Source of the DNA: Dissulfurirhabdus thermomarina
Lineage (GTDB): Bacteria > Desulfobacterota > Dissulfuribacteria > Dissulfuribacterales > Dissulfurirhabdaceae
DNA: 64,000 nucleotides
Reading direction: 5' to 3'
Assembly: GCF_012979235.1 (NCBI RefSeq)
Contig: NZ_JAATWC010000006.1
Location: 62,001 to 126,000, forward strand
Shown: positions 1,892-49,605 of the stretch, piece by piece
Numbering within the stretch: the first letter of the stretch is position 1
Layout: each line of letters begins with the position of its first letter
The notes under the pieces: model-generated
Told to the model about the DNA's origin: nothing
What the model saw: the letters and a program-made list of their open reading frames with translations, nothing else
Databases searched by the model: none
Made by a program: the position numbers and the translations under genes

Positions 1892-3397
1892 ATGCCCGAG
1901 AAACCGCCACGCCCCCCCGACACCGGCGCCGCCCCCGTCCTCCGGGAGGTGGACGAGGTGCTCGGCCGCCACCTCGATCGCGCCCTGGGCGGCCGGACCG
2001 CGCCGGGCGGATGCGTCCTGGACCTGGCGGCGCTGGCCGGCCTGATCCTCGCGGCCGGGCAAACGCGTCGGTACACGGCGGCGGAACTCGAGGCGGAACT
2101 CCTGGCGTGCGGCCTGCCGCCGGGGCCCCACATCGCCTCGGCCCTCCGGAGGATGCTCCGGGGCGGGCTCCTCGCCGAGGAACCGGACGGCGCCCTCCGC
2201 CTCCTCCCAGCGGCGGCCGAGACCGCCCGCCGCCTCGACGCCGTGTTCCAGGGCCTTCCCGGGCTCGCCCTGGTGGCCTACCTCGTGCAGACCGTGGACG
2301 AGGTCCTCACGGGCCGAAAGCCCCGGGCCGAGGCCCTGGCCCAGCTCGACCAGACCCTGGCCCGGTACGGGCCGGCACCCCCGCGCGGCGCCGGGCTGGA
2401 GGACAGGCTCTCCGCCCGCCTCCGGGAGCTGGCCGCCCGGCGGCAGAAAAAGGCCGGCGGGCCGCGGATCTTCGGGGCCGGGGCCGGAGCGGCGCCGCCG
2501 AAACCGGCCCCGGCCAAACGAAGGGCGGCGCCCGGCGCGGGCCAAGCCGGCGGCACCGGGGCACCCGGGCGACCCCCGGAGCCCGGCGCCGCGCCCACCG
2601 CCACCGGCGCCGTCCAGGCGCCCACGGAGAGCGCCCCCCCGCCCGGCGGCGCCGCCGCGGAAGCCCCTCCGGCGCCGAAGCCGAAACCGGCAGCGCCGCC
2701 GACCGCCCCCCGGGATGCGGCGGCGGCGGACCGACCCACCGAGGCGGGCCCGCCCGAAGCCACGGGGGAGACAACGGCCGCGTTCCGATCCGGCTCCCGG
2801 GAGGAAACGGCCGAAGCGGCCCGTCCCCCGGGACTCGAACCAGCGGAGGCGGAAGGGGCGGCCGCGGCGGCCGGGCTCGCCGGGAAGACGCCGTCCCCCG
2901 CGGGGAAGGAAACGCCGGAGGAGGCACCGGAAGCGGAACCGCCGCTGGAGGCGGCGCCCGGGCCGGAGACCGCCGCGACGGAACCGGAGCCGGCGGCCCC
3001 GCGTCCAGGAGCGCACGCCCCCGCCGCCGGGGCACCCGAATCGGCGGCGCAAGCGGTGCCGTCGAGCGCGGACGGATCGCCCGCCCCGGCCTGCCCGGCC
3101 TGCGGGTTCGAGGGCCTCGAGGCCCGGCCCTCCCCGGCCGGGAAGGTGCTCTACACGTGCCCGAGGCCGGGCTGCCACTTCGCCAGCTGGGGCCGGCCCG
3201 TCCCCCGCCCCTGCCCGGCCTGCGGCCACCCCTTCATGGTAGAGGCCGCGGGCGGGGTGCTCCGCTGCCCCCGGGCCGCCTGCGCCCGGTCGGTGCCGGC
3301 GGACGCCGGCGGCCCGGGGGATGGAGAAGGGCCGCCGGCGCCGAAACGGCGCCGGGTGGTCCGCCGGGTCCGGCGGGTCCGCCGGAAGCGGCGCTAG
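1892..3397 (+). CDS. Zinc-ribbon protein with Ala/Pro-rich linker, function unknown
   Basis: A 501-residue protein in three parts. Residues 1-190 look helical, and winged-helix-like stretches (RRYTAAELEAELLACGL, ALRRMLRGGLLAEE) could bind nucleic acid or protein. Residues 190-400 are a low-complexity linker rich in Ala, Pro, Glu and Gly. Residues 400-475 carry Cys pairs in the style of topoisomerase I C4 zinc ribbons (CPACG at 401-405, TCPRPGC near 423-428, CPACGHPF, then CPRAAC). The last 15 residues are almost all Arg, Lys and Val, a strongly basic tail. The family is not recognised. A nucleic-acid role is inferred from the C4 ribbons and basic tail. No export signal is present. Confidence 0.7.
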   Translation: MPEKPPRPPDTGAAPVLREVDEVLGRHLDRALGGRTAPGGCVLDLAALAGLILAAGQTRRYTAAELEAELLACGLPPGPHIASALRRMLRGGLLAEEPDGALRLLPAAAETARRLDAVFQGLPGLALVAYLVQTVDEVLTGRKPRAEALAQLDQTLARYGPAPPRGAGLEDRLSARLRELAARRQKKAGGPRIFGAGAGAAPPKPAPAKRRAAPGAGQAGGTGAPGRPPEPGAAPTATGAVQAPTESAPPPGGAAAEAPPAPKPKPAAPPTAPRDAAAADRPTEAGPPEATGETTAAFRSGSREETAEAARPPGLEPAEAEGAAAAAGLAGKTPSPAGKETPEEAPEAEPPLEAAPGPETAATEPEPAAPRPGAHAPAAGAPESAAQAVPSSADGSPAPACPACGFEGLEARPSPAGKVLYTCPRPGCHFASWGRPVPRPCPACGHPFMVEAAGGVLRCPRAACARSVPADAGGPGDGEGPPAPKRRRVVRRVRRVRRKRR

Positions 3398-48210: not shown

Positions 48211-48969
48211 TCACTCTCCTTCTTTTCGGCCGGCCGCCGCCGTTTCTCCACTTCCGGCATCCGCCGCCCGGCCGGACTCCCCGCGGTCACCGCCCCGGGC
48301 CACGGGAAGCCCGGCCAGGCGCCACTCCGGGAATCCCTCGGCGAAGCGGCGCGCCGCCACGCCGCCCCGCCGGAGCCGGTCCACCGCCTCGTAGGAGAGG
48401 ACGCAGTAGGGACCGCGGCAGTAGGCCACCACCTCGCGCCCGGGCGGAAGCCGGTGGAGAAGGCCGTCGATCTCCCGAAGGGGCACGTTGAGGGCCCCGG
48501 GGATGTGGCCGGCCTCGAACTCCTCCCGGGGCCGGACGTCGATCAGGGTCACCTCGCCCTCCCGCAGCCGGTGGAGAAGCTCGGCCGCGGACACCGGCTC
48601 GAGGCCGTCCAGGGCCGACAAGTACCGGTCCACCAGTTCCTGGACCTCGTCGAGTCGGCGCCGCGCCAGCCGGCGCACGACGTCCACCAGCTCGATGACG
48701 GCCTCGTCGGCCACCCGGTAGAAGACCTGGGAGCCCTCCCGCCGGCACGCCGCCAGGCCGGCGCGGCGGAGCACCTGGAGGTGGCGCGAGGTGTTGGCCA
48801 CGGAGAGGCCGGCCAGCCGCGCCAGGGCCTCCACGGGGCGCTCCCCCTGGGCGAGAAAGTCGAGCAGCTCGAGGCGGCTGGCGTGGCCGAGGGCCTTCCC
48901 CACCCGGGCGAACTGCTCGAAGAGGAGACGGCGGACATCGGCGCTTGACATGGAATCTCTGGATGCCAT
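48211..48969 (-). CDS. ArsR-family repressor fused to a rhodanese domain
   Basis: 252 residues. Residues 12-100 are an ArsR-type winged helix (GKALGHASRLELLDFLAQGERPVEALARLAGLSVANTSRHLQVLRRAGLAACRREGSQVFYRV). Residues about 125-225 are a rhodanese domain (LIDVRPREEFEAGHIPGALNVPL, active-site Cys184 in VAYCRGPYC). Such fusions are proposed to sense sulfane sulfur or thiol state via the rhodanese Cys and release DNA. Last 30 residues are low complexity. A palindromic operator lies 13 nt before the start, consistent with autoregulation. The cNMP gene follows after 46 nt. Confidence 0.9.
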   Translation of the reverse strand: MASRDSMSSADVRRLLFEQFARVGKALGHASRLELLDFLAQGERPVEALARLAGLSVANTSRHLQVLRRAGLAACRREGSQVFYRVADEAVIELVDVVRRLARRRLDEVQELVDRYLSALDGLEPVSAAELLHRLREGEVTLIDVRPREEFEAGHIPGALNVPLREIDGLLHRLPPGREVVAYCRGPYCVLSYEAVDRLRRGGVAARRFAEGFPEWRLAGLPVARGGDRGESGRAADAGSGETAAAGRKEGE

Positions 48970-48981
48970 AGAATCTGATTA

Positions 48982-48999
48982 TTCAACAAAAACGTTGAA
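48982..48999. promoter_or_regulatory. Candidate ArsR operator
   Basis: TTCAAC-AAAAAC-GTTGAA is a perfect 6-bp inverted repeat with a 6-bp A-rich spacer, 12 bp before the ArsR-rhodanese ATG. ArsR-family operators typically are such 12-2-12-like or shorter A+T-rich palindromes overlapping their own promoter. Local base composition is sharply more A+T-rich than the surroundings. Confidence 0.7.
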
Positions 49000-49035
49000 C
49001 ATCTTGCCGGGAGAGGAGCGCCGGCCCACAAAAAA

Positions 49036-49194
49036 ATGATGGCATCGCAGCAAAAAGTCGCAGGCTGCTGCATTGTTTCGGATGCGCGTCATTGCGGCGT
49101 ACCCGGCCACACCTCATTCCTCGACATTCTCGCGCCCTGTATGTGGCGATTTTTGCCGAGCCTCCACCCAGAAGACTTTTTACGAGGCCATCAG
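49036..49194 (-). repeat. Dispersed element with terminal inverted repeats (copy C, 159 bp)
   Basis: Plus-strand left end ATGATGGCATCGCAGCAAAAAGTC and right end GACTTTTTACGAGGCCATCAG are inverted repeats with a 3-nt indel. Read on the minus strand the interior matches 37044-37170 closely: TCGTAAAAAGTC, AAAAATCGCC, GGCGCGAGAATGTCGAGGAATGAGG, GGGTACGCCGCAATGA, CATCCGAA. It occupies the gap between the divergent ArsR-rhodanese and thioredoxin-like genes. Confidence 0.75.
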
Positions 49195-49325
49195 AAAGGC
49201 CGCCGATCGGATGGCTCAGCGAGCATCGCCAAGGACGAGGCGTCGACGGGGTACGCCGCAGCGGCTGCGATGGGAAGCACCGCCGCCAAGCGTCCCGCTT
49301 GGTGATTGCCGCGGCGCCATCATAC
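49195..49325 (+). repeat. Second repeat segment adjoining copy C
   Basis: Contains GGACGAGGCGTCGACGG, GGGTACGCCGCAGCGG and the terminal GCGGCGCCATCATAC, matching in order the right half of the copy at 37044-37239 (GAACGAGGCGTCGCCGG, GCGACGCCATCATAC). It looks like the remaining right half of a further copy, head-to-head with the 159-bp unit. It ends one base before the ATG of the thioredoxin-like gene, so the element supplies that gene's 5' region. Confidence 0.6.
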
Positions 49326-49326
49326 C

Positions 49327-49605
49327 ATGAAGCTCCGCCTCTACCTCAACCACCCCCCGGGCCGCCGCTGACGGGACATCCGGGCCGCGGCCGCGGCCCT
49401 CGAGGCACGCTACCCCCTGGAGATCGAGATCGTCCGCCGGCCCGACGTGGACCCGGACCGGCTGCCGGAGCTTCCCGCCTTCCCCGCCGTGGAGATCGAC
49501 GGCGAGGTGGTCTTCGAACGCCAGGCCGTGACCGAGGCGGCCCTGGAGGCCGCCGTCCGAAAACGCCTGCCGCATCCTTCCAACCCGCCTGGAGGCCGCC
49601 CATGA
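49327..49605 (+). CDS. Thioredoxin-fold small protein with in-frame UGA at codon 15 (possible selenoprotein)
   Basis: If UGA (49369-49371) is read through, the product has 92 residues: strand KLRLYL, then NHPPGRR-(UGA)-RDIRAAAAALEARYP helix, strand LEIEIV, and LPAFPAVEIDGEVVFERQ with the cis-Pro before the strand, ending in a helix. This is the beta-alpha-beta-beta-alpha plan of thioredoxin/glutaredoxin proteins, and UGA falls at the redox-active position at the start of helix 1. The true stop overlaps the TauE-like ATG by 4 nt (ATGA), which supports the frame. A hairpin with GG in its apical loop starts 10 nt after UGA. No Cys partner is present. A disrupted Cys codon (pseudogene) is the alternative. 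Confidence 0.55.
49382..49399 (+). promoter_or_regulatory. SECIS-like hairpin just downstream of the in-frame UGA
   Basis: GGGCCGC-GGCC-GCGGCCC forms a 7-bp stem with a four-base loop beginning GG, the loop starting 17 nt after the UGA. Bacterial SECIS elements are hairpins directly downstream of UGA with a G early in the apical loop at about this distance. In DNA this G+C-rich, such a stem can arise from Ala codons alone, so it is supportive only. Confidence 0.35.

Follow-up and report, generated by a model that had tools for sequence, protein, structure and literature searches.

The question raised by this locus is whether a short reading frame of Dissulfurirhabdus thermomarina that is interrupted by a TGA codon encodes a selenoprotein and, if so, to which family the protein belongs and what it does beside the transporter gene that follows it. 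The window, meaning the whole stretch of 64,000 nucleotides that was analyzed (contig NZ_JAATWC010000006.1, positions 62,001 to 126,000, forward strand), carried an initial annotation that proposed a thioredoxin-fold selenoprotein paired with a sulfur-anion exporter. Judged by sequence comparison, the gene very probably (about 0.85) does encode a selenoprotein, a transporter-linked variant of the TsoC (NxPxGxxU) family.

The frame claimed by the initial annotation was found in the sequence, with its ATG at 49327, TGA as codon 15 (49369–49371) and a terminal TGA at 49603–49605, and the claimed ATGA overlap was found as well, the terminal TGA of tsoC sharing bases with the TauE start codon at 49602 (Table 1). 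The GC content by codon position was 0.71/0.43/1.00 before the UGA and 0.86/0.51/0.87 after it, values of 0.66–0.82/0.50–0.54/0.89–0.95 being found for the neighboring genes of the window and 0.89/0.84/0.51, which is not coding-like, for the TauE frame extended upstream across tsoC. By this measure the tsoC frame is coding before as well as after the UGA, and an upstream extension of the TauE gene is unlikely. No clear Shine-Dalgarno sequence was seen before the ATG, and neither a signal peptide nor a second active-site Cys was evident in the protein. Translation of tsoC is probably coupled to the transporter gene through the overlapping stop and start codons. The promoter-like site and the palindrome located between the regulator and tsoC suggest, by consensus matching, control of the ArsR type; a shared TTCAA-N-TTGAA operator was sought in the loci of relatives and no common element was found. 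The 357-nt spacer between the regulator and tsoC (48970–49326) presented a GC content of 59%, below that of the flanking genes, and no gene or RNA was recognized there; it may be a long leader, or a boundary of acquired DNA. A desulfoferrodoxin-domain gene (PF01880; 50821–51267, minus strand) converges with the TauE gene of the window.

Table 1. Features of the tsoC-like locus, in coordinates of the window.
Feature	Position	Strand	Support or remark
tsoC-like selenoprotein gene	49327–49605	+	92 aa, Sec15; NF045708 60.4 bits, alignments, AF2 fold
In-frame UGA as selenocysteine (predicted)	49369–49371	+	UGA or Cys codon in the same column of relatives
SECIS-like hairpin GGGCCGC-GGCC-GCGGCCC	49382–49399	+	Conserved in UGA members of the clade; absent in Cys members
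TauE/SafE (TSUP, PF01925) transporter, 403 aa	49602–50813	+	PF01925 74 bits
GGAGG, Shine-Dalgarno-like, at tsoC 3' end ahead of TauE start	49591–49595	+	Read from the sequence
ArsR/SmtB-rhodanese fusion regulator, divergent	48211–48969	−	NF033788 75.3 bits, PF00581 57.6 bits
Sigma-70-like promoter TTGACA-18-TAGAAT toward tsoC	48945–48974	+	1 found, 0.1 expected; consensus match only
Palindrome TTCAAC-N6-GTTGAA directly past the −10 box	48982–48999	.	Candidate ArsR operator

The family of the read-through protein was determined with the NCBIfam model NF045708 ("NEPxGxxU motif selenoprotein TsoC"), for which a score of 60.4 bits (E = 1.2e-16) was obtained against a curated cut-off of 45 bits, the match covering both sides of the UGA. 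The motif reads N8-H-P10-P-G12-R-R-U15; the N, P, G and U of NEPxGxxU are kept, the E is replaced by H and the UGA is present. A 2026 review (PMC13188914) lists TsoC together with TsoA, TsoB, TsoX and TsoY, attributing them to Haft and Tolstoy 2025. The protein shares with canonical TsoC its length, the N-x-P-x-G-x-x-U motif, the single Sec and the conserved Pro, and differs from it by a four-residue deletion, by the motif itself (NHPPGRRU, against NEPNGKPU) and by having a TSUP partner without TsoA or TsoB. In the genome search it scored 52.7 bits, compared with 104–149 for canonical members. The machinery for selenocysteine is present in the genome, with selA (603 bits), selB (378 bits), tRNA-SeC (selC, anticodon TCA) and two copies of selD. 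One selD copy (L066, G000:C10:60502-61425) bears a UGA inside its active-site motif, CGUAAKIGP, and is an independent selenoprotein of this genome. Sequence data could hardly place the product more securely among the TsoC-family selenoproteins: the model match, the machinery, the Sec and Cys relatives and the hairpin of its clade all agree with the selenoprotein proposed by the initial annotation, in a family that already bears a name.

Relatives whose position 15 is Cys or UGA, as would be expected of a selenoprotein, were found in several searches. Within the phylum, 29 of 395 genomes matched NF045708 over the cut-off, and each such match has exactly one in-frame TGA; the only match scoring below the threshold (G004) is free of stops and presents NNPMGVRC, with Cys at the UGA column. 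This Cys domain is fused to DUF5714 (L033:1480-1728, minus strand; L059:1712-2716). Among relatives of the D. thermomarina TauE protein, that of a Nitrospirae MAG (L074) has its tauE gene directly preceded by a TsoC-like gene with UGA, and that of BMS3Bbin08 (L087) by the Cys form. A profile search of one Nitrospirota class gave matches in 48 of 230 genomes, most with one TGA and some without. In the best tree, D. thermomarina was grouped with support of 92/84 in a Nitrospirota clade of six Sec and six Cys sequences, its closest relatives, the highest identity (47%) being to a Cys member. Cys homologues number eight in the tree (L188, L191–L195, L087/L220 and L033), six of them in the nearest clade, and at least three Sec/Cys changes are required; these Cys relatives at the Sec position appear not to have been described before. 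A related-locus search queried with the D. thermomarina protein alone found none, because the protein is divergent and the search patterns treat Sec as Cys. In the organism's own order only chance-level weak matches and no convincing copy were obtained, for which reason purifying selection is not shown by any near relative. The relatives of the TauE protein at 48–66% identity are mostly from sulfate reducers and Nitrospirota, those at 60–66% were found in groups outside the order, and the TSUP proteins of order relatives are at most 25–29% identical to it over long stretches. From this identity pattern and the lack of a copy in the order, the tsoC-tauE cassette was probably acquired horizontally.

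The hairpin with GG in its loop that the initial annotation had placed 17 nt after the UGA is present, with its loop starting at that distance, and the G in the apical loop is the one looked for in a SECIS element. Taken alone, this hairpin is weak and not far beyond chance in a GC-rich gene, with fold z-scores of −0.1 to −0.7 and 8% of synonymous resamples matching its energy. It becomes significant because relatives share the spacing and show compensatory changes. In all six other Sec members of the clade the GG-loop of the hairpin likewise begins at a distance of exactly 17 nt from the UGA, 91.8% of the cells are paired in the seven aligned Sec members, 5 of 7 pairs have changed on both sides, and the covariation is 0.612, compared with 0.274 for shuffled and at most 0.197 for slid alignments. 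The six Cys members have no such helix (31% paired, the same as shuffled). The loop is GGCC in D. thermomarina and GGUN in the other clade members, and the hairpin of canonical TsoC lies 25 nt after the UGA. Rfam, searched at gathering thresholds, reported no SECIS family and only a tRNA. The possibility that this is a decayed gene or a chance read-through, with the UGA a true stop and the TauE gene starting downstream, would suit the ATG without a clear Shine-Dalgarno sequence, the absence of the gene from order relatives and a hairpin that by itself is near chance, but it is highly improbable in view of the model match across both sides of the UGA (E = 1.2e-16), the UGA or Cys in the same column of relatives, the hairpin covarying at fixed spacing, the coding-like GC on either side and the complete machinery.

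The protein is modeled with a thioredoxin fold, which bears out the thioredoxin-like pattern of secondary structure read by the initial annotation. The AF2 model, built with 48 sequences, reached a mean pLDDT of 83.8 and presents the order beta-alpha-beta-alpha-beta-beta-alpha (E2-7, H13-28, E32-37, H43-48, E54-57, E60-64 and H70-80), helix 1 beginning at residue 13 with the active site at its start. A Foldseek search of the PDB gave almost exclusively thioredoxins among its best hits (TM about 0.6–0.68, probability 1.0), with modest E-values (best 0.0027). When the protein was aligned by profile with 1ILO and a designed thioredoxin, Sec15 fell on the second Cys of CxxC, in the same column as Cys14 of 1ILO, and Gly12 on the first CxxC Cys of the designed thioredoxin; P53 fell on the conserved Pro of 1ILO, a candidate cis-Pro position, and the cis-Pro that had been claimed thus has a conserved Pro in its place. 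The small thioredoxins of the MTH895/ArsE family (TIGR00412; PDB 1ILO) share the small fold and the Pro position and have CxxC, whereas the active site here is GxxU, with Gly for the first Cys and Sec for the second. As aligned, the UGA occupies the second, resolving position of the active site. The statement that it falls where these proteins keep their active Cys thus holds for the column, but the residue replaced is the second Cys and the first is Gly. The missing second Cys, which had been called unusual, was found to be the normal state of the TsoC family, with Gly at the first position.

The locus could also be that of a canonical TsoC whose operon partners in the Tso system (TsoA, TsoB, TsoR, TsoX and TsoY) were simply lost. 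Canonical loci carry TsoR-TsoA-TsoB or TsoA-TsoX-TsoY, and this neighborhood is context that lies outside the definition of NF045708, of which the protein is a formal member. The adjoining ArsR and rhodanese domains are reminiscent of TsoR and of the rhodanese portion of TsoB, the ArsR-rhodanese regulator reaching 48 of 115 bits against the TsoR model, and an AU test does not reject the placement of D. thermomarina with canonical TsoC (p = 0.479). However, TsoA was not found in the genome and no TsoB match exceeded the cut-off, the best tree sets the protein in the Nitrospirota clade, and the 17-nt spacing of the hairpin is that of this clade and not the canonical 25 nt. A same-strand TSUP gene within 2 kb occurs in 22 of 40 Nitrospirota loci and in 0 of 22 canonical loci, counts that were made with one TSUP profile in related genomes and are not of independent events. 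Loss from a canonical system is accordingly improbable, and the transporter-linked variant is preferred.

The TSUP gene of the Nitrospirota loci is almost always directly downstream of the TsoC-like gene, and the partner in D. thermomarina belongs to the same TauE/SafE (TSUP, PF01925) family of sulfur-anion transporters. Within the clade of D. thermomarina it is mainly the Cys members that show this link; of the other Sec members, only L196 has a nearby TSUP gene, located upstream and shared with a paralogue. To our knowledge, selenoproteins are not known to have TauE/SafE as a regular partner in their operons, and a literature search for TauE with selenoproteins gave nothing relevant. The initial annotation had taken the pairing with an exporter to be new, which stands inasmuch as no earlier description seems to exist, but the pairing recurs in Nitrospirota; a recurring partnership of TsoC-family proteins and TSUP transporters appears not to have been described before. 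When the neighbors of the 40 Nitrospirota genes were clustered, ArsR was present in 25 loci. The TSUP transporter was of a 263-aa type in 18 loci and of the long TauE form in 3. Further neighbors were an SQR-like FAD/NAD oxidoreductase (10 loci), DsrH-like proteins (7), DsrE-type proteins (7 and 4), SelD (3) and, in some loci, methyltransferases. A selD gene lies within 2 kb of TsoC-like/TSUP genes in L198, L201 and L202, which perhaps links the module to selenium supply. Other arrangements were also observed. L196 and L197 have two different TsoC-like selenoprotein genes per operon, with the TSUP gene between them in L196. In L074, a rhodanese gene upstream of the TsoC-like gene (2686-3155, plus strand) has an in-frame UGA exactly at its catalytic Cys (IVLYU-IFDKRS), so that two selenoproteins may be encoded before TauE in this operon. 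In L189 (7641-8297) and L217 (6515-7399) a class I methyltransferase adjoins the TsoC-like selenoprotein gene or shares its frame.

On the sequence evidence, the UGA is very probably decoded as Sec by the organism's own SelA, SelB, SelC and SelD, guided by the hairpin, and the Sec protein is made directly before, and probably coupled to, the TauE/SafE-type transporter. A mechanism can be proposed in which the selenolate of GxxU, at the second-Cys position, would take up or release a sulfur atom (sulfane sulfur or persulfide), and the sulfur anion so formed, be it sulfite, thiosulfate or sulfide, would be carried through the membrane by the transporter; the chances of this division of labor, drawn from neighboring genes only, are put at about even. 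The pair would be turned on, via the promoter and palindrome (48945–48999), when the ArsR-rhodanese protein senses reactive sulfur. A sulfur role for the Sec is suggested because DsrE/DsrH, rhodanese and SQR-like genes neighbor the relatives, and the handling of sulfane sulfur or sulfur oxyanions is, from these neighbors, the likely function of the pair and our best guess.

The main rival to a sulfur role is that the pair handles metal, metalloid or selenium species in an ArsR-controlled detoxification, the Sec binding the ion and the TSUP protein exporting it. The ArsR neighbors in 25 loci, the adjacent selD in 3 and the weak similarity of clade members to the MTH895/ArsE family are compatible with such a role, as is the remark in PMC13188914 that links the majority of predicted transport-associated selenoproteins to resistance against metals or metalloids. 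The DsrE, DsrH, SQR-like, YeeE and rhodanese neighbors, however, belong to sulfur-handling families, and the regulator in the window carries a fused rhodanese; detoxification is thus rather unlikely, and sulfur handling is preferred. A broader and more tentative proposal, given slightly less than an even chance, is that of a selenium-dependent module for sulfur export (or import), in which a one-Sec thioredoxin-fold carrier would load a TSUP transporter under the control of a reactive-sulfur sensor, the module having come together on more than one occasion, with two different TSUP subfamilies (of 263 aa and of about 400 aa), and being convertible between Sec and Cys.

For the function of the TsoC selenoprotein family, the recurrent transporter partner, the Cys homologues and the sulfur-relay neighbors provide a first handle, within the evidence seen. 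Because one clade naturally contains Sec forms with the hairpin and Cys forms without it, the contribution of Sec could be compared directly.
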